Of a DNA stretch of 64,000 bases, positions 5,861-26,225 are shown piece after piece. Under the pieces are notes generated by a model, which worked only from the letters and a program-made list of their open reading frames with translations, was not told the origin of the DNA and made no database searches. A program made the translations under genes and the position numbers. Every line of letters starts with the position of its first letter. The stretch's first letter is position 1. Location of the stretch: assembly GCA_021777755.1 (NCBI GenBank), contig JAJYDE010000001.1, positions 62,001-126,000 on the forward strand, in the 5' to 3' direction. This stretch comes from Deltaproteobacteria bacterium (lineage in GTDB: Bacteria > Desulfobacterota > Syntrophobacteria > Syntrophobacterales > Syntrophobacteraceae).

Positions 5861-6307
5861 ATGCCAAGTTATGTAATGACTGAGAAGTGTGACGGCTGCA
5901 AGGGCCAGGACAAGACCGCTTGCATGTATATATGCCCAAACGACCTGATGGCGCTCGATAAGGACAGGATGAAGGGCTACAATCAGGAGCCCAATTACTG
6001 CTGGGAATGTTACTGCTGTGTTAAAATCTGTCCTCAGCAGGCCATGGACGTAAGAGGCTACGCCGACTTCATGCCTCTTGGCGCCGCTTCCACCCCGCTT
6101 CGCGGCTCCCAGGACATCATGTGGACCATCAAGTTCAGGGACGGCAGGATCAAAAGATTCAAGTACGCCACCAGGACGACGCCAGAGGGTTCTATTAAGC
6201 CCTTCGACGGATTCGCCGAGGCTAATCCAGCAGATCTGGACAATGGATTCCTCCTTGGTGAGCCCAGCATCATGGGTATGACAGAACTCCTGACAATCAA
6301 GAAATAA
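5861..6307 (+). CDS. aprB: Adenylylsulfate (APS) reductase, beta subunit
   Basis: A 148-residue iron-sulfur subunit of dissimilatory APS reductase, which feeds electrons to the FAD of AprA in the cytoplasm. Two [4Fe-4S] sites are visible: C10, C13, C21, C25, with the 7-residue insertion between the second and third Cys that is typical of AprB, and C47, C50, C53, C57. The C-terminal tail after residue 65 is the part that wraps around AprA in known structures. It has a strong Shine-Dalgarno (AGGAGGT) and aprA follows after 12 bp. Length and motifs match the family closely. Confidence 0.97.
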   Translation: MPSYVMTEKCDGCKGQDKTACMYICPNDLMALDKDRMKGYNQEPNYCWECYCCVKICPQQAMDVRGYADFMPLGAASTPLRGSQDIMWTIKFRDGRIKRFKYATRTTPEGSIKPFDGFAEANPADLDNGFLLGEPSIMGMTELLTIKK

Positions 6308-6319
6308 GGAGACATAAAA

Positions 6320-8236
6320 ATGAGAGATTTCGCTACAGAGGTTGTCGAAACTGACGTGTTGATCCTTGGTGGTGGTATGTCCGGCTGTGGCGCCGCGGTT
6401 GAGGCCGCTTACTGGGCCAAGCCGCTGGGCTTGAAAGTGACTCTTGTCGATAAGGCTGCAATCGATCGAAGCGGTCCTGTGGCGATGGGTCTTTCGGCCA
6501 TCAACACCTACATGGGGTTGGACGGCAAAGTTACCCAGAATCCCCGCAAGCCCGAAAGATTTGCCGAGTACGTCACCAACGATCAGTGCGGTATGGCTCG
6601 CCAGGACCTCGTCTATGACGTGGCCCGCCATGTCGACTCCTCTGTGAAACACTTCGACAAGTGGGGTCTGCCGATTTGGAAAGATGAATCGGGAAATTAT
6701 GTAAAGTCCGGTGAGTGGCAGGTCATGATCGCCGGTGAGTCCTACAAGATCCTCGTGGCCGAAGCCGCCAAGTCCGCATTGGCCGCTATGGGCGATAAAG
6801 GCCAGCTCATGGAGAGGATCATGATCACGCACCTGGTAAAAGACGACAAGGATCCCAGCCGGATCGCCGGTGCTGTCGGCTTCTCCGTGCGTGAAGACAA
6901 GTTCTACGTCTTCAAAGCCAAGGTTACCCTGGCCCTTATGGGTGGCGCGGTTCACGTTTTCCGTCCCAGGTCCCAGGGCGAAGCTTTCGGCCGCTCCTGG
7001 ATGCCTCCGTTTGTTTCCGGCTCCGTCTATGCCCTGGTGTTGCAGGCTGGGGGCGAGCGTACCCAGATGGACAACACCTTTGTTCCTCCGCGGTTCAAGG
7101 ACTCCTACGGTCCGGTTGGAACCTTCTTCCTGCTCTTCAAGACCCCGGCCACCAACGGCGAGGGCGGATCTTACATCGGCGCTTATCCCGACGAGCTGGC
7201 AAAATGGGCTCCTTACTCCAATGCCAAGCCCTGCCCGACCCCGATCCGCAACTACGAAATGATTCTGTGCCAGAGGGAAGGCAAGCTGCCTTTCATTATG
7301 CATACGGAAGCGGTCGTGGAGAGATTCAAGAAGGAAATCTCCGATCCCAAGGAACTCAAAAAGAAGATCAAGGCCTACGAAAGCGAAGCCTGGGAAGACT
7401 TCCTGGATATGACAATCGCTGGCGCCACCAACTGGGCGGCCCACAATGTCGATCCGCTCGAGAAACCCATGGAACTTCAGCTTTCCGACTCGGTCTTCAT
7501 CGGTTCGCATGCATGCTCCTGCGGTTCTTGGACCTGTGGCCCCGCAGACCTTATGCCTGCTGAATTCAAGGATGCCTTCCCCGCACAGTACAACCTGATG
7601 ACGACCGTTAAGGGTCTTTTCACGGCTGGGTGCGGTGTTGGCGCCTGTGCTCACAAGTTTTCGAGCGGCTCGCACGTACAGGGCAGGATCGCCGGCAAGT
7701 CGGTTGTGAAGTTCGTCAATGACGAAAAGGCCTACTCTCCGACGATTTCCGACGCTACCGTTGCCAAGTACAAGGAAATCATCTTCAAGCCTTTCGTAAC
7801 CTATGATACGAACAAGGATTTCACCACCACCCCCGATGTCAACCCCAACTACATTTCTCCCCATAACTTCCTGTTCAGACTCCAGAAGATCATGGGCGAG
7901 TATGCCGGTGGCTGGGAGACCCTGTACGGAACATCGGACAAACTGCTTGAGACCGGCCTTTGGAAGCTTGGTCTTCTCGGCGAAGACATCGAGAAGCTGG
8001 CCGCCAAGGATTCGCATGAACTGATGAGAGCATGGGAATCGGTCCACAGGTACTATGTCGGCGAGGCGTGTTCCCGGTCCAGACTGGCTCGTAAAGAGTC
8101 CAGGTGGCCTGGCTACTACTACAAGTTCGACTACCTGAAGCTCGATGACAGCCAGAAGCACTTCGTCAACGTGAAGTTCGACGAAGCCACGAATGAATGG
8201 ACCGTTCTGACTCGTCCGATGATCTCCATCGTCTAG
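6320..8236 (+). CDS. aprA: Adenylylsulfate (APS) reductase, alpha subunit
   Basis: A 638-residue FAD flavoprotein that reduces APS to sulfite and AMP, the second step of dissimilatory sulfate reduction. The dinucleotide-binding motif 'ILGGGMSGCGAA' lies near residues 15-27, and the 'DKAAIDRSGPVAMGLSAIN' segment and the conserved 'CSCGSWTCG' region are AprA-specific. It belongs to the fumarate reductase/succinate dehydrogenase flavoprotein superfamily and is co-transcribed with aprB. Codon use and the strong ribosome site suggest high expression. A 773-codon open frame on the opposite strand spans aprBA and is a coding shadow. Confidence 0.97.
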   Translation: MRDFATEVVETDVLILGGGMSGCGAAVEAAYWAKPLGLKVTLVDKAAIDRSGPVAMGLSAINTYMGLDGKVTQNPRKPERFAEYVTNDQCGMARQDLVYDVARHVDSSVKHFDKWGLPIWKDESGNYVKSGEWQVMIAGESYKILVAEAAKSALAAMGDKGQLMERIMITHLVKDDKDPSRIAGAVGFSVREDKFYVFKAKVTLALMGGAVHVFRPRSQGEAFGRSWMPPFVSGSVYALVLQAGGERTQMDNTFVPPRFKDSYGPVGTFFLLFKTPATNGEGGSYIGAYPDELAKWAPYSNAKPCPTPIRNYEMILCQREGKLPFIMHTEAVVERFKKEISDPKELKKKIKAYESEAWEDFLDMTIAGATNWAAHNVDPLEKPMELQLSDSVFIGSHACSCGSWTCGPADLMPAEFKDAFPAQYNLMTTVKGLFTAGCGVGACAHKFSSGSHVQGRIAGKSVVKFVNDEKAYSPTISDATVAKYKEIIFKPFVTYDTNKDFTTTPDVNPNYISPHNFLFRLQKIMGEYAGGWETLYGTSDKLLETGLWKLGLLGEDIEKLAAKDSHELMRAWESVHRYYVGEACSRSRLARKESRWPGYYYKFDYLKLDDSQKHFVNVKFDEATNEWTVLTRPMISIV

Positions 8237-8266
8237 TCAGGTCTGTGTCTTGGAATGTGTATGAAA

Positions 8267-8303
8267 GGGGGCGGCCTCCGGGTCGTCCCCAATACTTTTA
8301 TTT
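8267..8303 (+). terminator. Terminator-like hairpin after aprA
   Basis: A 10-bp stem GGGGGCGGCC/GGTCGTCCCC (two G-U pairs, loop TCCG) is followed by AATACTTTTATTT. It ends 30 bp downstream of aprA and 41 bp before the first YkgJ-type gene, so aprBA is probably mostly a separate transcript with partial read-through. Confidence 0.55.
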
Positions 8304-8343
8304 AAAGGCCGTAAAATAACGTGGGTTGTTTGGAGAGTTTTAT

Positions 8344-9120
8344 ATGAGCGAGCAAAATGATAACAAATTCCTGTATACCCTGGATGAAGAATTCACCTTC
8401 TCATGCGAAAATACGCTTCCGTGCTTCAACACCTGCTGCCGTGATATAAATATTTTCCTTACCCCCTACGATGTTTTGAGAATGAGAAAAAGCCTGTGGA
8501 TTCCATCGGAAGACTTCCTTAGAAAGTATACGGTCGCGCTTCTGGGAGACGACGGCATACCCCTTGTTGTGCTCAAGATGCGGGAAGATGAGGAAAAGAC
8601 CTGCCCCTTCGTCGGACCTGACGGGTGTACTATCTACCAGGACAGGCCCTGGTCGTGCAGAATGTTTCCGGTTTTTCCGGTCTCAGCCGAGGAAGAGGAA
8701 TTCCTGATCGAAGAGAAAATTTCCTGCCATGGGTTCCGGGTTAAGAAAACATCGACTGTCAGGCGGTGGAAAAACGAGCAGGATATAGCCAAATATGATT
8801 CCATGAATGAAGGGTATAAAAAGATCACCCTTCATGAATTTTTCCAGAATGGAAACAAGATCGAATCGGGCATGTCCAAGCTGGTCTACAACACCTGCTA
8901 TGATCTGGATGCATTCAAAAGATTCATCTTCGGCTCCAGGTTCTTCGATATCTATGACATCGACGTGCAGACTATCGAGGCGATAAAAAACGATGATGAG
9001 GAGCTGCTCAAATTCGCCTATCGCTGGGTGGAATTCAATCTTTTTTCCACAGGGGATCTGAGACTCAAAGACAAGGAGATGGACAAGCTTCTGCAAGCCA
9101 GGAACAAGGCCACATCCTGA
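8344..9120 (+). CDS. YkgJ-type CxxxCC cysteine-cluster protein, copy 1
   Basis: A 258-residue protein of the YkgJ/FliB-like cysteine-cluster family (PF03692 pattern), of unknown biochemical function, presumed to bind an Fe-S cluster or zinc. Cysteines are C21, C27, C31-C32, C87, C95, C105 and C128, with 'CPFVGPDGCTIYQDRP' as the family signature. No signal peptide or TM is seen. I use the ATG at 8344, eight bases after GGAG; a TTG six codons earlier is open but has no ribosome site. It is a paralogue of the next gene with identical spacing of all eight cysteines. Its position between aprBA and sat suggests a link to sulfate reduction, for example cofactor maturation, but this is inference. 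Confidence 0.8.
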   Translation: MSEQNDNKFLYTLDEEFTFSCENTLPCFNTCCRDINIFLTPYDVLRMRKSLWIPSEDFLRKYTVALLGDDGIPLVVLKMREDEEKTCPFVGPDGCTIYQDRPWSCRMFPVFPVSAEEEEFLIEEKISCHGFRVKKTSTVRRWKNEQDIAKYDSMNEGYKKITLHEFFQNGNKIESGMSKLVYNTCYDLDAFKRFIFGSRFFDIYDIDVQTIEAIKNDDEELLKFAYRWVEFNLFSTGDLRLKDKEMDKLLQARNKATS

Positions 9121-9350
9121 TCCGTTTTGGCCGATGCCCGGGTCTATCGCGCCTGTTTTACTGAAAATCCTGTTTTTTGCGCCGGCGGGTATGGCCATTT
9201 GTGTGGTGAGCGGTTAGAATCGACAAGCCAATCGCGGAATAGCCTTCGTCGGGGCGGTCCCAACCGCCCCCTGGCGATCTTGTTATCCGCATCCTCCCGG
9301 ATCGGAAATCGCTCCATGTTGTCTATTTAGTGTACAGAAAGGATTGATCG

Positions 9351-10148
9351 ATGCTACCCAGTACCGAGTATGTTGAGGCCGTCGAACGTTCCCTGGATTC
9401 GAAGTTCACTTTCCAGTGCCATAAAGATATCAGTTGCTTCAACAAGTGTTGCCACCACACGGACATGCTCCTTACGCCCTACGATATTATAAGGATCAAG
9501 AAAAGGCTCGGGATTTCCTCCACCGAGTTTCTTGAAAAATATACATATACTCATATCGATGAAAAGTCTTCTCACCCCTTTGCCGTTCTTACAATGAACC
9601 AGGACGAAGAGGGTGCCTGCCGTTTTCTGACTTCCGAAGGCTGTAGTATTTACGAGGATCGTCCCGAGAACTGCAGATATTATCCGGTGGGCAAGGGACT
9701 GATGATCAGGGATACGGTCGATGGGCCGGCTCCGGTTGATTTCTATTTCTTCATTCGTCAGCCGAGCTGCCGCGGCTACGAAGGCGGAAGGGAGTGGACC
9801 ATCGCCGAATGGAGGGCCGCCCAGGGCGCCGAGCTCTATGACGAGATGAACAGGGAATGGCAGGAGATTCAACTAAGAAGAGACAATCCTGGAAAACCCA
9901 AACTGGACGACAAGAAGCAGTCGCTCATGTACATGGCAAGCTATGATGTGGATAAATTCAGGCAATTCGTCTTTGATAGCGGATTTCTCGACTTGTTCGA
10001 TTTGGAAACAGACGAAATTGAAAAGATTCGCGGCGACGAGGTAGCCTTGATGAAGTTTGGTTTCAAATATCTGAAATATATGCTCATGCTTGAAGAGACA
10101 TTGAAAATTAAGGACAAACACATTAAGGAAACAAAGTCGGTCGGTTAA
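9351..10148 (+). CDS. YkgJ-type CxxxCC cysteine-cluster protein, copy 2
   Basis: A 265-residue paralogue of the preceding gene. Cysteines C23, C29, C33-C34, C90, C98, C108 and C140 follow the same pattern (C-x5-C-x3-CC, then C-x7-C-x9-C, then C), and both proteins share 'LTPYD(V/I)xRxxK' and a C-terminal 'YDxDxFRxFxF' block. It begins at an ATG with a GAAAGGAT ribosome site. It lies 230 bp after copy 1, and that gap holds no gene I can support. The duplicate has diverged well beyond recent tandem duplication, so the two likely have distinct retained roles, possibly as a heterodimer. Confidence 0.8.
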   Translation: MLPSTEYVEAVERSLDSKFTFQCHKDISCFNKCCHHTDMLLTPYDIIRIKKRLGISSTEFLEKYTYTHIDEKSSHPFAVLTMNQDEEGACRFLTSEGCSIYEDRPENCRYYPVGKGLMIRDTVDGPAPVDFYFFIRQPSCRGYEGGREWTIAEWRAAQGAELYDEMNREWQEIQLRRDNPGKPKLDDKKQSLMYMASYDVDKFRQFVFDSGFLDLFDLETDEIEKIRGDEVALMKFGFKYLKYMLMLEETLKIKDKHIKETKSVG

Positions 10149-10177
10149 GATTTTCACGGCCCCGGCTGAAGATATTG

Positions 10178-10205
10178 ACCGGGCGGGCTCGTGAGCCCGC
10201 CCGGT
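10178..10205. terminator. Perfect 13-bp GC hairpin
   Basis: ACCGGGCGGGCTC is followed by GT and its exact reverse complement. It lies 30 bp after the second YkgJ-type gene and just beyond the end of the small convergent reading frame at 10241-10465. There is no T-run on the plus side; it may serve both strands. Confidence 0.55.
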
Positions 10206-10240
10206 TGTCGGGATTCTCCTTTCGGCCGTATCCGCAAGTT

Positions 10241-10465
10241 CTAGTTGGCCGGCGACCGCGGTTGTTCATGATTTATCCCGGTAATGGTTATTGTTTCGAT
10301 TTCTTCGGAAAACAGATCCAGCGGGAAATGGTCCACTCCGGGATCTCCGGCCCCGCCCAGATTCATCCAGTCCGCCCAGGGTTCATAGCTTCGGGCTACG
10401 TTTAAAAGTTTTTCCCTCAGGGCATCACGTTCCTCTTGACTCATATTTTCAATATCGAGCAGCAT
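10241..10465 (-). CDS. Small hypothetical protein (74 residues)
   Basis: An acidic, 74-residue frame beginning 'MLLDIENMSQEERDALRE'. I do not recognise a family. Support for it being real is a strong Shine-Dalgarno (GGAGG about ten bases before the ATG), an amphipathic helical N-terminus of normal composition, and a hairpin at 10178-10205 just after the stop. Overlapping plus-strand frames look like shadows. It is convergent with the second YkgJ-type gene and divergent from the sat leader. Confidence 0.45.
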   Translation of the reverse strand: MLLDIENMSQEERDALREKLLNVARSYEPWADWMNLGGAGDPGVDHFPLDLFSEEIETITITGINHEQPRSPAN

Positions 10466-10853
10466 TGGCTGTATACCTCCGATTCAAGCAAACTATTCAA
10501 ACAAATAACTCATTGATTATTGTAAAATAAGTCGGCCACGGGGAGAGCGCAAGCAAGCTCGAAAAATCGAGGCGCGATTCCATGGGCTCCGCTTTGGAAA
10601 GATATCCCCGAAAATGGACGAAGCAGTCCTCGCCGGGAACTCACTTTTTTGTTGCACACCCAAAGGTTACGTGTTAAGTAGTGAGATGCGGGAAGACATT
10701 CCCGTGCCGACTATCCCGAGACTTACGAGAAGGACGGCAAGTGCTTTTGAGAGTTACTCCAAAAATCATCGACCGGCGTGTGAGTTCCGGAATAAATGAG
10801 CATCGTCGATTCTCCGGGCCCCGCCATTTGAATTTTTAATCTGGAATACAGGA

Positions 10854-10887
10854 ACCTCCGGTGCATGGCGCCAGGAGGTGTTTTTTT
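10854..10887 (+). terminator. Intrinsic terminator upstream of sat
   Basis: Stem ACCTCC-GGTGC with loop ATG pairs with GCGCC-(A)-GGAGGT, followed by GTTTTTTT. No protein gene ends directly before it, so it either insulates sat, ends a small RNA, or acts as an attenuator in a longer sat leader. Confidence 0.7.
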
Positions 10888-10897
10888 ACCCTGGTGC

Positions 10898-10926
10898 TTG
10901 AATTTGTTCGATATTTTGGTTATTTT
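10898..10926 (+). promoter_or_regulatory. Candidate promoter for sat
   Basis: TTGAAT (-35) and TATTTT (-10) are 17 bp apart and start 10 bp after the terminator T-run. Transcription would begin about 80 bases before the sat ATG. Match to consensus is moderate. Confidence 0.4.
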
Positions 10927-11014
10927 CGATGTGATTGAGGCGTGCAGTCGTGGGGCTTTCCCACGTCACGGTAATTGATTGAACATTTCGCTAACTTTAA
11001 GGAGAAAGAGACTA

Positions 11015-12289
11015 ATGTCACAACTACTCCCCCCTCATGGTGGAAAGGGCTTGACCTGCTGTTTGCTGGAAGGCGCCGAGCTGCAAGCTGAACTCAAAAA
11101 AGCTCAAGGTCTCAAAAAAATCGAAATCTCTCCTCGTGAAAAGGGCGACCTTATCATGATGGGCATCGGCGGCTTCAGCCCGCTGACCGGGTTTATGACC
11201 AAGGCCGACTGGAAGGGCGTTTGCGAAAAATTCCTGATGGCTGACGGGACCTTCTGGCCCATCCCCGTGACCCTTTCGGCCAGCAAGGACGATGCTGCCG
11301 CAATCTCTTTGGGCGATGAAATTGCTCTTTTCGACCCTGAGCGCCAGGAGATCATGGCCACTATGAAGGTCACCGAAAAATTCGAGATGACCGAGGCCGA
11401 TAAGAAGTTTGAATGTGAAAAAGTCTATATGGGCGAAGGCACCAAGACGGCCGATGAATTTTGGAAGATCGCCAAAGACGATCATCCGGGCGTCAAGATG
11501 GTCATGGAACAAAAGGCCTTCAACCTGGCCGGTCCGGTAAAGGTTTTGAGCGAAGCCGAATATCCGACCAAGTACGCTGGCGTCTACATGAGACCTGCGG
11601 AATCCAGAAAGATTTTCGAGGAAAGAGGCTGGAGCGAGATTGCCGCCCTTCAGTTGCGCAACCCCATGCACCGTTCGCACGAATATCTTTGCAAGATCGC
11701 AGTTGAAGTGTGCGATGGCGTTTTCATCCACTCTCTGGTCGGCAACCTGAAGCCCGGCGACATCCCGGCCGAGGTTCGCGTCAAGTGTATCGATGTTTTG
11801 GTGAAGAATTACTTTGTGGAAGACAAGGTCCTCCAGGGCGGCTATCCTCTGGATATGCGTTATGCCGGTCCCCGCGAAGCTTTGCTTCACGCCACTTTCC
11901 GCCAGAACTACGGCTGCTCGCGCATGATCATCGGCCGCGACCATGCCGGTGTTGGCGATTTCTACGGGATGTTCGAAGCTCAGACCATTTTCGACAAAAT
12001 CCCCAAGCCGGCGGGTGGTAAGGGCCTTCTGTGCACCCCGCTCAAAATCGACTGGACTTTCTACTGCCATAAGTGCGACGGCATGGCCTCTCTTCGCACC
12101 TGCCCCCACGGCAAGGCCGACCGCGTTCTGCTGAGCGGCACCGCCCTTCGCAAGGGACTTTCCGAAGGTACCACGATTCCCGATCACTTCGGTCGTGAGG
12201 AAGTTCTCGATATTCTCCGCGAATACTACGCGGGTCTGGAAGAAAAGGTCGAGATCAAGCTGCACGCGGCCGCGACCGGTAACAAATAA
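11015..12289 (+). CDS. sat: Sulfate adenylyltransferase (ATP sulfurylase)
   Basis: A 424-residue enzyme that activates sulfate with ATP to APS and pyrophosphate, the first step of sulfate reduction. The ATP-site '[13 protein letters not shown]' has its HxxH-type signature at H219-H222, and '[12 protein letters not shown]' is the second conserved site. A zinc-binding Cys set at C351, C354 and C363 followed by His ('CPH') is typical of dissimilatory and archaeal enzymes. No APS-kinase domain follows. I start at the ATG at 11015, preceded by AAGGAG, rather than the frame opening at 10979. It supplies substrate for AprBA encoded upstream. Confidence 0.97.
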
Positions 12290-12314
12290 GGTCGGAACTT
12301 TATTTTGAACCATG

Positions 12315-12350
12315 GGAGACGCACTGAAAAGTGTGTCTCCTCTTTTTTTT
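12315..12350 (+). terminator. Intrinsic terminator after sat
   Basis: An 11-bp stem GGAGACGCACT/AGTGTGTCTCC (one G-U pair) with a GAAA loop is followed by TCTTTTTTTT. It separates sat from qmoA, whose ATG is 55 bp further on, so qmoAB needs its own promoter or read-through. Confidence 0.92.
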
Positions 12351-12404
12351 GTAACGGATTTACAGGGCTTTCCACGTTAAAATTGTATGTTACGGAGGAG
12401 TGGT

Positions 12405-13673
12405 ATGGCTGATGCTAAAGATAGCTCCCGGACAATTGTTGTCGCAGGCGGCGGAATAGCCGGGCTGAGCGCCGCTGTTGAAGCCGCGGAAGCCGGCTTC
12501 AAAGTTATCCTGGTCGAACGGGAACCGTTTCTTGGCGGTCGCGTGGCTCGCATGAACAAGTACTTCCCAAAACTTTGCCCTCCGCAATGCGGTCTGGAGA
12601 TCAATTTCCGCCGCATTCGCAGCAATCCCCTCATCGAGGTCATGACGATGTCGGAGGTGGAGAAAATAGAGGGAGAGGCGGGCAATTTTGCGGTCTCGAT
12701 TCGTGTATATCCCCGGTTCGTAAATGAGAAGTGCACCGGCTGCGGCAAGTGCTCGGAAGCCGCCCGAACGCTGATCCCCAATCCTTTCGACTACGGTCTG
12801 AGTTCGGTAAAGGCCGCCTATCTGCCCCATGAATTCGCCTATCCGATGCGCTACGTCATAGCCCCCGAGGTCGCGGCCACCGAGGAGGTCAAGGCGATCG
12901 AGGCTGCCTGCGAGTACGGGGCCGTTGAGCCGGATATGGCCTCACGCAGCGTTGAAATCAAGGCCGGGGCCATCATTTGGGCAACCGGGTGGAAGCCCTT
13001 CGATATCTCGGCGATTTCTTACTACGGGGGCGGAAAGCACCGAAACGTGGTTTCCAACGTTGTGATGGAGCGGCTTGCCTCCGCCAATGGTCCCACCAAG
13101 GGTGTGATAGCGAGGCCTTCGGACGCGAGGCCGGTGAAAAAAATCGCTTTCGTACAGTGCGCGGGGTCCAGAGACGAGAACAATTTGCCTTACTGTTCGA
13201 GCGTGTGCTGCCTTGCCTCTCTGAAGCAGGCGACTTATTTGCTCGACCGGGAGCCCGAGGCGGAGGTTGCCATCTTTTATATTGATATTCGCGCTCTTGG
13301 TCGCCAGGAAGGCTTTTTCGATAAAGTCCGCCAGGACGGCCGTGTTCGTTTGGTAAAGGGCAAGCCCGGCGAAATCACCGAGAATCCGGAGACGGGTATG
13401 GTCACCGTGCAGGTCGAAGATCAGGAGACAGGCAAGATTCTAAGGGACGAATTCGACCTGGTCGTGCTGGCCGCCGGTATGGAACCTTCCACCGCGGGGG
13501 AGAAAATCCCCGCGGCCGGCGTCGTCTACGACGAAAATGGCTTCGTTGTCTCAAACGGCCCGGTTCCAGGCATTATCGGCGCTGGTTGCAGCAGAAGGCC
13601 CGCCGATGTTTCATCGACCGTTCAGGATGCGACCGCGGCCGTTCTTAGGGCTATCCAGGCTTGCAGGAGGTAG
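12405..13673 (+). CDS. qmoA: QmoA, HdrA-like flavoprotein of the Qmo complex
   Basis: A 422-residue FAD protein related to heterodisulfide reductase subunit A, part of the Qmo complex that delivers electrons to APS reductase. Seen are an N-terminal FAD motif 'VVAGGGIAGLSAAVEAAEAG', 'YFPKLCPPQCGLEINFRR', an Fe-S site around 'CTGCGKCSEAAR', and 'AFVQCAGSRD...YCSSVCC', hallmarks of HdrA/QmoA proteins. The ATG at 12405 follows GGAGGAG; an ATG six codons earlier is less likely because the ribosome site lies inside that extension. qmoB follows after 3 bp. Confidence 0.94.
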   Translation: MADAKDSSRTIVVAGGGIAGLSAAVEAAEAGFKVILVEREPFLGGRVARMNKYFPKLCPPQCGLEINFRRIRSNPLIEVMTMSEVEKIEGEAGNFAVSIRVYPRFVNEKCTGCGKCSEAARTLIPNPFDYGLSSVKAAYLPHEFAYPMRYVIAPEVAATEEVKAIEAACEYGAVEPDMASRSVEIKAGAIIWATGWKPFDISAISYYGGGKHRNVVSNVVMERLASANGPTKGVIARPSDARPVKKIAFVQCAGSRDENNLPYCSSVCCLASLKQATYLLDREPEAEVAIFYIDIRALGRQEGFFDKVRQDGRVRLVKGKPGEITENPETGMVTVQVEDQETGKILRDEFDLVVLAAGMEPSTAGEKIPAAGVVYDENGFVVSNGPVPGIIGAGCSRRPADVSSTVQDATAAVLRAIQACRR

Positions 13674-13676
13674 AGG

Positions 13677-15893
13677 ATGGAAAAGAAAATCGGCGTATAT
13701 ATCTGTTCGGGCTGCGGGATCGGCGGGAGCCTCGATGTGGAAGCGCTGTCGGCGGTGGCCGGGGAACACAAGGCGGCGGTTTGCCGCACGGACCCTTTCC
13801 TGTGTGGGGGTGAAGGCGTCGGGCGCATCAAGGCCGATATAGAGACCGAAGGAATTGATCGGATTGTGATTGCGGCCTGCTCTCCGCGTGTTATGGCCGA
13901 CGTTTTCGATTTCGGGCCGCGGATGGTGCTGGAAAGGGTCAACTTTCGCGAGCAGCTTGCATGGTGTCAGCCGGCGGGGGAAGAAGACACCCGCATGATG
14001 GCTGAGGACGCTTTGCGGATGGGTCTTGTCAAAGTCGGCGACTCCGAGCCCCTGGAGCCCTTCATCGCCGAGGATATCAGCAAGAAAATCCTGGTGGTGG
14101 GCGGCGGGCTGACCGGAATGACGGCCGCGCTGGAAGCCGCAAGAGCCGGATATGAAACGGTCCTGGTGGAAAAGGGTGAAAAACTGGGAGGCTATCTCAA
14201 GGATGTGTATCGCCTTCCGCCGAGTGGGCCTCCCTATGAAAATCTCGATGATTTCGATTTGGAGGCGATGAGGGCCGCTATTTCGAACGAACCGGGAGTC
14301 AAGGTCTATACGGGCGCGATGGTCTCATCGGTCTCAGGGGCGCCCTGCATGTTCGACGTCGAGGTTAGCCAAAACGGGGCGACATGCGGCGAACGGGTCG
14401 GCGCCATAATCCTGGCCACGGGTTCTGTGCCCTACGATGCCTCAAGGCTGACCAAGCTTTCCTACGGGACTTCGCCCGATATCGTAACGGCCCTGGAGCT
14501 CGAAGTCATGTTCAAGGAAGGCGCGGTGAAAAAGCCTTCCAACGGGCAACCGGTCGGGTCCGCGGCTTTCGTTCTTTGCGCCGGTTCGCGAGATCCGGAG
14601 CACCTGGCCTACTGTTCTTCGGCGTGCTGCGTCGAATCTCTTAAGCAGGCGCGATACTTCAAGGAAGCCAACCCGCAGACACCTGTTTATATTTTCTACA
14701 AAGACATGCGGTCCACCGGAAACTATGAACTGCTCTACAAGCAACTCCAGAAGGACGGCGTTATCTTTGTGCGCGGCAATGTCACCGGAATCGATGACGA
14801 TGGCTCGGGCGGCCTGGTGGTCACTTGCGATGACGTGCTTACCCGCTCGCCGGTCATCTCGGAGAGCGTGGACCTTGTGGTGCTGGCAACGGGAATGGTT
14901 CCGACGAGCGCTCTTGGTGAGCCTTTCAAGGTGGCTGCCCCGCAGCAGGGTGCGGAACCCGCGCCGATCGCCTCGGACGCCATTTTGGTCTCCAATCTGC
15001 TCAACCTCAAATACAGGCAGGGGCCGGAGTTGCCCGGGCTCGAATATGGATTTCCCGATTCGCATTTCATCTGCTTTCCCTATGAATCGCGGCGCACGGG
15101 AATTTACCCGGCGGGAACCGTGCGTGCCCCGATGGATTACCAGCAGGCCGGGACCGATGCAATGGGCGCGGCTCTAAAAGCGATCCAGTGCGTTGAAATG
15201 GTCTCGGTCGGGCAGGCCGTGCATCCCAGGGCCGGTGACCGGAGCTATCCGGAGTTTTTCATGCAGCGTTGCACCCAGTGCAAGCGTTGCACGGAGGAAT
15301 GTCCCTTTGGCGCGATAAATGAAGACGAAAAGGCCAATCCCCTGCCCAATCCCACCCGGTGCCGCCGGTGCGGGGTATGCATGGGGGCGTGCCCGGAGAG
15401 GATTATTTCCTTTAAAAATTTCTCCGTGGGCATGATTGGAAACATGATCAAGAATATCAACGTTCCGGACGAATACGACGAAAAGCCAAGGATCCTGGTG
15501 CTGGCGTGCGAAAACGACGCCTATCCGGCCCTTGACATGGCGGGGATTTCGGGACTTTCTTTCAACCCGTGGGTCAGAATCATCCCGGTGCGCTGCCTTG
15601 GGTCGGTGAACCTGGTCTGGATCGCCGATGCGCTCTCCAAGGGAATCGACGGCATCCTTCTACTCGGATGCAAGCACGGAAACGATTACCAGTGCCATTT
15701 CATCAAGGGTAGTGAGTTGGCCAACACGCGCATGACCAAGATCCAGGAAACCCTTGACAGGCTGGCCTTGGAATCCGACCGGGTGAAGATGGAACAGGTC
15801 GCGATTACCGACTTCAACCTGGTGCCTAAGATGCTGGACGAATTTGCTGAAAAGATAAACAGCCTTGGACCCAACCCGTACAAAGGGTTCTGA
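13677..15893 (+). CDS. qmoB: QmoB, HdrA/MvhD-like flavoprotein of the Qmo complex
   Basis: A 738-residue second HdrA-like subunit. The N-terminal part (1-130) is an HdrA N-terminal module starting 'IGVYICSGCGIGGSLD', followed by an FAD motif 'ILVVGGGLTGMTAALEAARAG', the Cys block 'LCAGSRDPEHLAYCSSACC', two [4Fe-4S] motifs 'CTQCKRCTEECP' and 'CRRCGVCMGACP', and a C-terminal MvhD-like domain ('VLACENDAYPALDMAG...GCKHGNDYQCHFIKG', given in parts). This order is that of QmoB. The gene is coupled to qmoA and followed by the HdrD-like gene after 65 bp. Confidence 0.94.
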   Translation: MEKKIGVYICSGCGIGGSLDVEALSAVAGEHKAAVCRTDPFLCGGEGVGRIKADIETEGIDRIVIAACSPRVMADVFDFGPRMVLERVNFREQLAWCQPAGEEDTRMMAEDALRMGLVKVGDSEPLEPFIAEDISKKILVVGGGLTGMTAALEAARAGYETVLVEKGEKLGGYLKDVYRLPPSGPPYENLDDFDLEAMRAAISNEPGVKVYTGAMVSSVSGAPCMFDVEVSQNGATCGERVGAIILATGSVPYDASRLTKLSYGTSPDIVTALELEVMFKEGAVKKPSNGQPVGSAAFVLCAGSRDPEHLAYCSSACCVESLKQARYFKEANPQTPVYIFYKDMRSTGNYELLYKQLQKDGVIFVRGNVTGIDDDGSGGLVVTCDDVLTRSPVISESVDLVVLATGMVPTSALGEPFKVAAPQQGAEPAPIASDAILVSNLLNLKYRQGPELPGLEYGFPDSHFICFPYESRRTGIYPAGTVRAPMDYQQAGTDAMGAALKAIQCVEMVSVGQAVHPRAGDRSYPEFFMQRCTQCKRCTEECPFGAINEDEKANPLPNPTRCRRCGVCMGACPERIISFKNFSVGMIGNMIKNINVPDEYDEKPRILVLACENDAYPALDMAGISGLSFNPWVRIIPVRCLGSVNLVWIADALSKGIDGILLLGCKHGNDYQCHFIKGSELANTRMTKIQETLDRLALESDRVKMEQVAITDFNLVPKMLDEFAEKINSLGPNPYKGF

Positions 15894-15958
15894 TTCGATT
15901 TTTTTCGCGCCGCCGGTCTTTCCGGCGGCTTTGAATCAGACTGCAAGGAGCGCTCTTT

Positions 15959-17119
15959 ATGGAACCGAAAAACATCCTGCTCGAAATGAAGGACTATATA
16001 GTTGAAATGGGGGCTGAGACCATCAACTGGTGCATGCAGTGCGGTCTTTGCACCAATCTTTGCCCCTGGAGGCTGGTGCCGGGGCAGACCGGCGAAGAAT
16101 TTAACATCCGCTACATGCAGCGTTTGGGACAGATGGGAATTGAGGGTTTCGAGGACGAAAACATGCTTTTCGCCTGTTCGACCTGCGGCATGTGCCAAAA
16201 CAATTGCCCGAGGGGTGTGAAGATCATCGACAATGTGCGGGCCATGCGGGCCGGCATTGTTGGCGGAGGCATGGCGCCTTCGGGTTTGCGCCCGATTCTG
16301 GGGAGCTGTCACGCCAACGGAAATCCCTGGTCTGGCCCCAGGGAGAACAGGACCAAGTGGCAGGAGGGACTCGATATCCCGCGGTTCGGACCGGATACCG
16401 AATACTTCCTGTTCGTGTGCTGCCACTCCTGCTATGATCCTCGCGGGATGAAGATCGCCCGAAGCATCGCTTCTTTGCTGCAAAAGGGCGGGGTGAGCTT
16501 CGGAGTGATCGGGACCGAGGAAAGCTGCTGCGGTGAAAGCATGCGCAAGGTTGGCGACGAGGAGCTTTTCCAAAAGCTTGCCGGTGCCAATATCGAGCTT
16601 TTCAACGGCAAGGGGGTAAAAAAGATCATCACCACATCCCCCCATTGTCTGTGGAGCTTCAAAAACGATTACGCTCAGCTCGGGGCCCAATGGGAAGTGG
16701 TCCATTACACAGAAGTGCTGGCCGGGCTTGTTGCCGAGGGTAGAATTGTCCCGGCCAAAAAATCCGCCAGGAAGGTGTCTTTCCACGATCCCTGTTATCT
16801 GGGAAGGCACAGCGATATTTACGACGCTCCGAGGGAACTGCTCAGCTCCATTCCCGGAATGGAATTGAGAGAACTTGCCCGTTCGCGCGAGTCCAGCCTT
16901 TGTTGCGCCGGGGGCGGCGGGCGCATCTGGGCTGAAGTGCCCATGGGGGAGCGCTTCGGTGAGTTGCGGGTGCTCGATGCCGAGGCGAGCGGGGCGCAGG
17001 TGCTTGCCACCTCGTGTCCTTATTGCGTGAATATGCTGAGCGATGCCTGCGCCAGCCTTGGCAAACAGGATAGCCTCGAGATCATGGAACTCTCGGAGTT
17101 GCTGGCGGACAGTCTGTAA
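15959..17119 (+). CDS. HdrD-like (HdrC+HdrB) soluble iron-sulfur protein in the QmoC position
   Basis: A 386-residue protein with no hydrophobic helix. Residues 1-100 hold an HdrC-like pair of [4Fe-4S] sites (C25, C28, C31, C35 and C73, C76, C79, C83). Residues 150-360 hold two CCG modules of the HdrB/GlpC/LdhA type: C154-C155/C158 with CCG at 190-192 and C230, and C279 with C315-C316 and C353/C356. This is the HdrD layout. Normal QmoC has an HdrC part fused to a membrane cytochrome b; that half is absent here and no TM gene follows. The likely role is electron transfer to QmoAB from a soluble or other partner (inference), as proposed for the qmoAB-hdrBC arrangement of Gram-positive sulfate reducers. 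Confidence 0.85.
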   Translation: MEPKNILLEMKDYIVEMGAETINWCMQCGLCTNLCPWRLVPGQTGEEFNIRYMQRLGQMGIEGFEDENMLFACSTCGMCQNNCPRGVKIIDNVRAMRAGIVGGGMAPSGLRPILGSCHANGNPWSGPRENRTKWQEGLDIPRFGPDTEYFLFVCCHSCYDPRGMKIARSIASLLQKGGVSFGVIGTEESCCGESMRKVGDEELFQKLAGANIELFNGKGVKKIITTSPHCLWSFKNDYAQLGAQWEVVHYTEVLAGLVAEGRIVPAKKSARKVSFHDPCYLGRHSDIYDAPRELLSSIPGMELRELARSRESSLCCAGGGGRIWAEVPMGERFGELRVLDAEASGAQVLATSCPYCVNMLSDACASLGKQDSLEIMELSELLADSL

Positions 17120-17472: not shown

Positions 17473-19164
17473 ATGAAGTCGAAAGCACTTTTAGCCCTGG
17501 CGTTACTGGGCGTTTTGATCGTCACCGCCGCCCCTTGTGCTGTCTTCGCGCAAGGCCCCGAAGGCGGTGTCACCTTCAGCCGGGAGCAACTGGACCAAAT
17601 GCTGGCCCCAGTTGCCCTGTATCCGGATTCCCTGCTGGCGCAAATCCTTATAGCGGCCACTTATCCCGACCAGGTGATGGATGCGGATCAATGGTTGCAT
17701 GCCAACCCCGGGCTAAGGGGGCGCGCGCTCAACGCCGAACTCGACCGGATGCGCTGGGATCTTAGCATCAAGGCGCTCGTGCCTTTCCCGGCGGTGCTCG
17801 ACATGCTGGCCCAGCAGCCGGATTGGGCCCAACGGTTGGGTGAAGCTTTCATGGCCCAGCAGGCCGATGTCATGGACTCTGTTCAAAGACTGCGCAGAAA
17901 AGCGCAGGAGGCCGGCAATCTCAGGACGACCCCCCAGCAGAGGGTGGTTGTAACCGACGATTATGTGGAGATCCAGCCCGTTGATCCGGACATGGTCTAT
18001 ATCCCGCGCTATGACCCCGCGGTGGTCTACGGCAGTTGGTGGTGGCCGTCTTATCCTCCTTATGCTTATTATCCCGTTTGGCCGGGGCCGGTCATTGGTT
18101 TTGCCCCGGTTGTGGGGGCTTTCGGGTTTTGGGGCGGCATAACCGTCGGACCGGCCTGGGGCTGGGGCTGGGGCAGTTGGGGTTGGGGGGGGGGCAATGT
18201 GTTCCTCAATGTCAACCGGAACATTAATATCAACACCACGAACGTTACGGTCATAAACAGTTGGCACAACAATTTCCGCTACGCCAACGCACATAATTTG
18301 GCAGTGGCGGGCCGTGTAGGTTCCCCCACGATCCGGACGAGGGCCTTGGGAACAAGCAGAGTAAATCCCGCCGCCCTGCAGGGCCATATCCAAACAGGCC
18401 GGATCACTCACGGCCAGCTTGTAACACGCACAGGCGCACGTCCGGGCATGGCCGGTGCGGCCGCGGGCCGCCATCCGGGCTACGGCAATAACGGTTTCGG
18501 GGCTCCGGGAAAAATGAACGCACCCGGTCAGCATCCGGGGTATGGCAAAAACGGTTACGGGGCTCCGGGAAAAATGAACGCACCCGGTCAGCATCCGGGG
18601 TATGGCAAAAACGGTTTCGGGGCTCCGGGAAAAATGAACACACCCGGTCAGCATCCCGGGTATCGAAATAACGGTTTCGGGGCTCCGGGAAAAATGAACG
18701 CTCCCGGTCAGCATCCCGGACGACCTTCGGCAAACCAGGTCATGCAGGAACTGCATGGCGGCAAGACCGGGGCGGGGGGCTCACAGGGTCGGGGCGGCTA
18801 CGGCAACACCTCTCACGGTGTTTCCCGCGGAAGCTACGGCGGGGCCAACCGGGGCGGCTACGGGCAGCAGCACAATAGCGGCTACCGAGGCGGCTACGGC
18901 AACACCTCGCACGGTGTTTCCCAGGGAAGCTACGGCGGGGCCAATCGCGGCGGCTACGGACAGCACAATAACGCTCCTCACGGAGGGTATGGCGGTGCTG
19001 CTCCCCGCGGTGGTTTTGCCGCTCCGCACAATAACTTTGGAGGCGCTCCCCGCGGTGGTTTTGCCGCTCCGCACAATAACTTTGGAGGCGCTCCCCGCGG
19101 TGCTCCTCATGGCGGTGTAGGCGCTCCCCACGGCGGTGTAGGCCAAAACCAGAAAAAGAAATAG
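17473..19164 (+). CDS. DUF3300 exported protein with Gly-rich repeat tail
   Basis: A 563-residue secreted protein of unknown function. It has a Sec signal peptide (residues 1-27, ending 'CAVFAQG'), then a DUF3300 domain (about 30-190) with 'LDQMLAPVALYPDSLLAQIL', 'WDLSIKALVPFP' and 'RYDPAVVYGSWWWP', then aromatic/Gly-rich segments (195-240). From about residue 334 on there are low-complexity repeats: four 20-residue units built on 'GAPGKMNAPGQHPGYGKN', then two 32-residue Gly-rich units and two 15-residue units. It ends in a Lys-rich tail. A paralogue lies at 23404-24675. The tail suggests a cell-envelope or surface role, which is inference. Confidence 0.82.
   Translation: MKSKALLALALLGVLIVTAAPCAVFAQGPEGGVTFSREQLDQMLAPVALYPDSLLAQILIAATYPDQVMDADQWLHANPGLRGRALNAELDRMRWDLSIKALVPFPAVLDMLAQQPDWAQRLGEAFMAQQADVMDSVQRLRRKAQEAGNLRTTPQQRVVVTDDYVEIQPVDPDMVYIPRYDPAVVYGSWWWPSYPPYAYYPVWPGPVIGFAPVVGAFGFWGGITVGPAWGWGWGSWGWGGGNVFLNVNRNININTTNVTVINSWHNNFRYANAHNLAVAGRVGSPTIRTRALGTSRVNPAALQGHIQTGRITHGQLVTRTGARPGMAGAAAGRHPGYGNNGFGAPGKMNAPGQHPGYGKNGYGAPGKMNAPGQHPGYGKNGFGAPGKMNTPGQHPGYRNNGFGAPGKMNAPGQHPGRPSANQVMQELHGGKTGAGGSQGRGGYGNTSHGVSRGSYGGANRGGYGQQHNSGYRGGYGNTSHGVSQGSYGGANRGGYGQHNNAPHGGYGGAAPRGGFAAPHNNFGGAPRGGFAAPHNNFGGAPRGAPHGGVGAPHGGVGQNQKKK
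18472..18720 (+). repeat. Four in-frame 60-bp tandem repeats
   Basis: Units start at 18472, 18532, 18592 and 18652, with a partial fifth from 18712. They differ at only a few bases each and code for a 20-residue motif with HPGY, GAPGKMN and PGQ. The high nucleotide identity suggests recent expansion by slippage or unequal recombination. Confidence 0.92.
18793..19100 (+). repeat. Two further tandem repeat sets in the same gene
   Basis: A 96-bp unit is repeated twice (starts 18793 and 18889), coding for Gly/Tyr-rich residues with 'GGYGNTSHGVS'. A 45-bp unit is repeated twice from about 19006, coding for 'GGFAAPHNNFGGAPR'. Both stay in frame. Confidence 0.85.
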
Positions 19165-25256: not shown

Positions 25257-26225
25257 GGGATTTCGCGCCCCCTCATCCGGGCGGCCTTCTTTGCGAACCA
25301 GTGACTTTTTCTTCCCGGCTTTCGATTTTTTTTCTTCTTTATCCGGTATGGCGGCTCTTTAAGACAGAAAACTAATACCGAAGAGGTTGAAATTATAGCC
25401 GGAGAGCGGACTCATAAGAACATCTATTGCCAGGCCGACTCTTTGCGTTCGCCCGGGGCGTGCCACCAATGGCATGAAATTGATCCGGGAGTTGTATCCC
25501 CGTTTTTGCAATTATGGCCGATCCGGCGAGAGACTCAAGCTGTTATTGGAAAAATATTTTTTTGATCGGTTTGCTTAACAGTTCGATTTAACGAATATTT
25601 CGGGATTTCGGGGTAAAAATTAACAGCGCGGGAACAGCATGGGAACAGCGGGGATAACAGCATGAATAACAGCAGAGGTAACAGCATGGGTAACAGCATG
25701 ATAACAGCATGGGAACAGCAAGGGGAAAAAGGGCGAAAAGCGAAGGAGAAGAGCGAAGCGCGTAAATAGGCGATAGTACGGGGGGATGGACGAAGAATTA
25801 GTGTCGTGTCCGTCCGCAAACTGCGGGATTCGGAAGGGCGATTTGAGTTCGAGGCGTCCTTAACCAATGTGGGGTTCAGGTGGGAGCCAGGGATTTTTGC
25901 CAATAAATCGGGTGCGAGCTTGTGCAAAATCCCCCCCGTCCCGCCTTTTCAAAGGGGGCGAAACCATAGCCGGTTTATTCAGTTTTCAAAGAACCCTGTC
26001 GTCGGGTCCGCGGGTCGAAAGGCCCGGCGGGCGATAACGGTGGAATCCCACCGTGTTTGATATCACAAAAGGATTTGGAACCGCAAAGCGGCACCCTGAA
26101 GCGGCAAATAGGGGCGGCAATGGAAACGGCAACCAGAAGGGGAAAATGGTGGGTCGATGTGTGGAGGATTGGAAACAAGCTTTGTCGATCTGAATTTCAT
26201 TGCGATCGCCCCGGCCGCCGCAGGG
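25257..26225 (+). other. Gene-poor region with repeat array
   Basis: About 970 bp with no gene I can support. It contains the AACAGC array (25622-25719). Short frames on either strand, including a 130-codon minus-strand frame through the array, have skewed low-complexity composition and no ribosome site. A short hairpin CGGTGG-AATC-CCACCG lies near 26038-26053. No tRNA or known riboswitch is seen. Confidence 0.5.
25622..25719 (+). repeat. Nine AACAGC-based direct repeats at 11-12 bp spacing
   Basis: The hexamer AACAGC occurs at 25622, 25633, 25644, 25656, 25668, 25680, 25692, 25703 and 25714, mostly followed by ATGGG or a variant. The steps are 11, 11, 12, 12, 12, 12, 11 and 11 bp, close to one helical turn. 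It is not CRISPR: units are far too short and there are no spacers. Confidence 0.9.

Follow-up and report, generated by a model that had tools for sequence, protein, structure and literature searches.

FliB is a [4Fe-4S], S-adenosylmethionine (SAM)-dependent lysine methyltransferase acting on flagellin; it carries a CX4CX3CC motif and eight conserved cysteines, and the authors who described it likened the motif to PF03692 (PMC8598068). In a quadruple cysteine mutant of CX4CX3CC, both the [4Fe-4S] cluster and flagellin methylation were lost (PMC8598068). In D. vulgaris, methylated lysines were reported in ApsA, ApsB and DsrC with no methylase named, and SAM synthetase and adenosylhomocysteinase co-purified with ApsA (PMC3125180).

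In the 64,000-nucleotide stretch of DNA analysed here (the window), two PF03692 proteins, Y1 (258 aa, 8344–9120) and Y2 (265 aa, 9351–10148), are encoded inside a sulfate-reduction locus whose genes, from aprB to an HdrBC-like gene (5861–17119), all lie on the + strand. The locus starts with aprB (APS reductase beta subunit, 5861–6307; TIGR02060, 205.6 bits against a cut-off of 135.65) and aprA (alpha subunit, 6320–8236; TIGR02061, 781 bits against 641.75). Y1 and Y2 follow, each preceded by a ribosome-binding-site-like sequence, and then come sat (ATP sulfurylase, 11012–12289; NF003166/TIGR00339 above cut-off), qmoA (12387–13673; best match HdrA-like, named from its position and 63–83% identity to related qmo loci) and qmoB (13677–15893; HdrA2-like). 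The qmoC position (15959–17119) is occupied by an HdrBC-like Fe-S protein with CCG and Fer4 domains that is 73–77% identical to same-position proteins of related loci. This soluble, TfrB-like protein replaces the membrane protein QmoC, as it does in ten other Syntrophobacterales loci. A terminator-like hairpin with a 10-pair stem and a T-rich tail lies in the gap between aprA and Y1 (8267–8290, + strand; predicted fold −23.1 kcal/mol, z = −2.7); terminator-like matches around it showed no excess over shuffle expectation. The hairpin may keep Y1/Y2 expression below that of aprBA. The gap between Y2 and sat holds what is probably a real small gene, a 74-aa ORF on the − strand (10241–10465) with 69–76% identity to ORFs at the same place in relatives of the genus and no Pfam match. 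A DUF3300 protein with C-terminal 60-bp (20-aa) tandem repeats is encoded just 3' of the sulfate-reduction locus (17473–19164), and a short array of 11-bp tandem repeats (consensus TAACAGCATGG) occurs at 25621–25720.

The sequence-only reading had described Y1 and Y2 as paralogues of YkgJ type that keep all eight cysteines at the same spacing. Their paralogy and their family were borne out: the two + strand ORFs encode proteins with 34% identity over 245 aa (E = 7e-57), and these scored 41.1 and 46.8 bits, respectively, against the PF03692 gathering cut-off of 23. All eight cysteines are kept in both and were invariant in an alignment of relatives (82 of 82). The spacing, however, differs between Y1 and Y2 at two places, C4–C5 (54 versus 55 residues, respectively) and C7–C8 (22 versus 31), and is identical elsewhere. 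Across the subfamily it reads CX5CX3CC-X54/55-C-X7-C-X9-C-Xn-C, nearly fixed from C1 to C7 and variable at C8, with CX5CX3CC present in all 80 distinct relatives. L-x-P-x-D, GC, RP-x2-CR and CxG were the other invariant motifs of the 82 relatives. The YkgJ label thus holds for the domain but not for the motif, which in YkgJ proteins in the narrow sense is CX2CX2CC; the other two PF03692 proteins of this genome have that ordinary form (CARCGQCC and CNKCGLCC). The PF03692 domain was detected in each of the 23 subfamily members scanned, and no family was recognised beyond it in these members or in Y1 and Y2. AlphaFold models of Y1 and Y2 were of modest confidence (pLDDT 76 and 74), poorest near the cysteines. 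Searches with the models gave no PDB match at E ≤ 0.001 in Foldseek and nothing above Z 2.4 in VIA-align, which does not make the fold new; a PDB sequence search found no solved structure related to either protein. Among papers accessible without subscription, none was found on this family in sulfate reducers or on its link to apr.

To define the distribution of the subfamily, its profile (A1) was searched against 247 Desulfobacterota genomes of at least 85% completeness. Y was detected in 100 genomes and aprA above its cut-off in 95 (both, 93; Y only, 7; aprA only, 2; neither, 145), which places Y in 93 of 95 genomes with aprA versus 7 of 152 without (Fisher p = 1e-56, the genomes not being independent). 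dsrA was present in every Y-carrying genome, and when only dsrA-positive genomes were considered the contrast persisted (93 of 95 with aprA, 7 of 28 without). Because 21 dsrA-positive, aprA-negative genomes have no Y, aprA is the better predictor of Y. Dsr as the main driver was rejected on the same ground, yet some paralogues lie near dsrA. Among families with dsrA, tallied by hand, 39 had both Y and aprA, one aprA only, none Y only and seven neither (p = 1e-7). A similar pattern was observed in 148 Nitrospirota genomes of unstated completeness, where four partial aprA matches were counted as aprA: Y occurred in 55 of 65 genomes with aprA versus 2 of 83 without (p = 1e-27). One genome, G250, has kept dsrA and lacks both aprA and Y, whereas its congeners G230 and G269 carry all three. 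As for the seven Y-only Desulfobacterota, G127 has aprB, and the other six have neither apr subunit above cut-off. G154, G159 and G240 are draft assemblies, and apr occurs in their families; genuine exceptions seem to be G137, G231 and G265. Apparent Y pairs without apr in G042, G044 and G046 proved to be an artefact of the aprA search, aprB being above cut-off in all three. We conclude that Y is linked to AprBA, and that it co-occurs with aprA independently of dsrA, as expected of an AprBA-dedicated accessory.

Gene neighbourhoods agree with a functional link to the core sulfate-reduction locus, which the sequence-only reading had suspected and which both surveys strongly support; the lack of such a link in related genomes, which that reading would have taken as refutation, was not observed. 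A distance of no more than 10 kb separates Y from aprA in at least 37 genomes of Desulfobacterota and at least 20 of Nitrospirota, compared with expected numbers of about 1.6 and 0.5; Y lies within 7 kb of dsrA in 7 genomes among the matches listed. The place between aprBA and sat is correct for the window but is a local arrangement, the commonest being after qmoABC. In the Syntrophobacterales the commonest order is sat-aprBA-qmoAB-HdrBC-Ya-Yb, with the Y pair after the qmo genes, and in other classes one or two Y genes often lie near aprBA-qmoABC. The order aprBA-Y1-Y2 was found in the genus of the window, in three genomes of families f43 and f75 (G091, G125 and G221), and in Nitrospirota (L039 and G430). 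That two roles are kept, as the first reading supposed, is plausible: the upstream and downstream copies form mostly two separate lineages in a quick tree with some unresolved groups, and Syntrophobacterales and related classes keep them in a fixed order. A single copy, however, is all that Desulfovibrio-type genomes and most Nitrospirota have. At five loci in the vicinity of dsrAB a Y gene is paired with an opposite-strand 344-aa gene, which in L097, the one checked, belongs to the DHDPS family.

Phylogenies separate the history of aprBA and Y from that of the surrounding genes. In the aprA tree the window clusters with Nitrospirota and f43/f75 (12 rows, support 1.0), whereas in the qmoB tree it falls within its own order (support 0.996–1.0) and in the sat tree its sat is of the native type, within its own genus. 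Y1 and Y2 are 53–63% and 64% identical, respectively, to Nitrospirota proteins, versus roughly 35–42% to Syntrophobacterales copies. Because Y and aprA differ in this way from qmoB and sat, aprBA-Y1-Y2 must have arrived as a unit in a native sat/qmo locus; we infer the direction of this transfer. In G019, besides the cassette, a single Ya of native type has remained behind the HdrBC gene. Movement of the cassette with aprBA into a locus whose sat and qmo genes are native suggests that the Y pair is suited to AprBA and not to Qmo. A genome of the same genus, G001, has two aprBA copies on separate contigs, one of the ordinary Desulfobacterota type and one of the window type, and a Y pair was detected only with the latter.

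What Y1 and Y2 do for AprBA can be read in several ways. They might be redox or electron-transfer accessories acting between Qmo and AprBA, or might sense the state of clusters or of sulfite, as the presence of qmoABC in the same locus, their richness in cysteines and cluster binding by analogy with FliB would allow. We consider such roles improbable: the cassette travelled with aprBA while native qmo genes stayed in place, some Y copies are distant from qmo or beside dsrAB, and no ferredoxin-like domain was recognised in Y. Several Y copies near dsrAB or unrelated genes, and retention of Y in a few apr-negative genomes, would instead suit a general gene of sulfate reducers for metal or sulfide handling, associated with apr through lifestyle and gene clustering only. 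This, too, is an unlikely account, given the absence of Y from the 21 dsrA-positive genomes without apr and the joint transfer and joint loss of aprBA-Y1-Y2.

The main alternative, which we regard as possible though doubtful, is that Y1 and Y2 are maturation factors of AprBA: their eight cysteines would hold iron or a cluster for transfer, and the proteins would supply or shield the [4Fe-4S] clusters of AprBA, or assist in FAD insertion or subunit assembly. AprB holds two [4Fe-4S] clusters, and the domain PF03692 is annotated as a putative chelator of zinc or iron. The strict linkage to aprBA, travel with aprBA and not with qmo, and the hairpin after aprA, which may lower expression, would fit a dedicated chaperone needed at low dose. 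However, no Y was found in 10 of the 65 apr-carrying Nitrospirota genomes or in G079, some of them incomplete, so that such a factor is probably not strictly needed; moreover, among proteins with a related motif FliB has been studied best, and it is a methyltransferase.

The reading that we tentatively prefer, at less than even chances, is that Y1 and Y2 represent an AprBA-dedicated PF03692 Fe-S subfamily that methylates AprBA lysines in the manner of FliB. Our confidence in it is modest because maturation fits the linkage nearly as well. Each Y protein would bind one [4Fe-4S] cluster through CX5CX3CC and would use SAM to methylate lysines of AprBA, as FliB does with flagellin. The fuller version, a lysine methyltransferase system of two genes that is sensitive to oxygen, relies on a [4Fe-4S] cluster and SAM, and acts on APS reductase near the substrate pocket and on Dsr proteins via paralogues, is put forward with more reserve. 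The two paralogues could then correspond to two sites or to two subunits, and those beside dsrAB perhaps take DsrC/DsrAB lysines as substrate. The best candidate site would be the lysine in GPVGxxFLLFK of AprA, which adjoins APS-binding residues. Counting along the alignment places it at Lys281 of the Archaeoglobus fulgidus AprA; the stretch also holds Gly274 and Leu278, two residues that we take to be APS contacts.

The lysines methylated in D. vulgaris ApsA and ApsB are kept in the window (GPVGTFFLLFK in aprA and IMWTIKFR in aprB). The AprA site is K in 80 of 80 sequences, including nine loci from genomes in which no Y was detected, so that its conservation is no proof of a Y role. At the AprB site 5 of 68 sequences have T, and all five loci carry Y1 and Y2, which counts against the methyltransferase reading. 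The methylated lysines did not co-vary with Y in a discriminating way. Also counting against methylation are the six genomes with Y but neither apr subunit detected, the lack of a recognised SAM-binding signature or fold match for Y, and the fact that no Desulfovibrio protein is known to have been linked to the methylation. Family f44, which its ApsB peptide and very high scores against TIGR02061 lead us to regard as Desulfovibrio-like, has one Y per genome, in line with presence of the gene in the species whose lysines are methylated; the position of the Y gene in f44 genomes was not found. The FliB model NF038110 (cut-off 85 bits) did not match Y1 or Y2, and its best value among the 23 members scanned was E = 0.32, for a single protein, so Y falls outside that family as modelled and its sequence relation to FliB is marginal, which also counts against the methyltransferase reading. 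The same model, run without a positive control, found no FliB in Desulfobacterota, and no FliB sequence was found in the fliA-fliC regions of E. coli.

Sulfate respiration operates on a major scale worldwide, and the list of its core enzymes is regarded as complete. A subfamily that tracks APS reductase in two phyla, sharing both its movement and its loss, probably represents a component absent from that list. The association of Y with APS reductase points to a dedicated helper, possibly its methylating enzyme. Which enzyme methylates the lysines of ApsA, ApsB and DsrC has been a question since 2011, and Y is a concrete candidate for it; if the proposal is true, protein methylation would be built into the sulfate respiration of Desulfobacterota and Nitrospirota.

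QmoD (DVU0851) resembles Y as an uncharacterised product in the context of a Desulfovibrio apr/qmo locus, where it stands at the locus end (PMC3125180, PMC10920352). It was rejected as the Desulfovibrio counterpart: proteins at the QmoD position have neither PF03692 nor the cysteine pattern, and the Y model does not retrieve the proteins after qmoC in Desulfovibrio. With YkgJ-type PF03692 proteins the Y subfamily has the domain in common, but it adds a conserved C-terminal region of about 100 residues and, among the genomes surveyed, is confined to those with dsrA (sulfate/sulfite reducers). From FliB, compared by its published description, Y differs in genomic partners and in being shorter than the 373-position NF038110 model. 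The N-terminal motif is CX5CX3CC in Y and CX4CX3CC in FliB; FliB is described with a PF03692-like motif and eight conserved cysteines, and Y has eight invariant ones.
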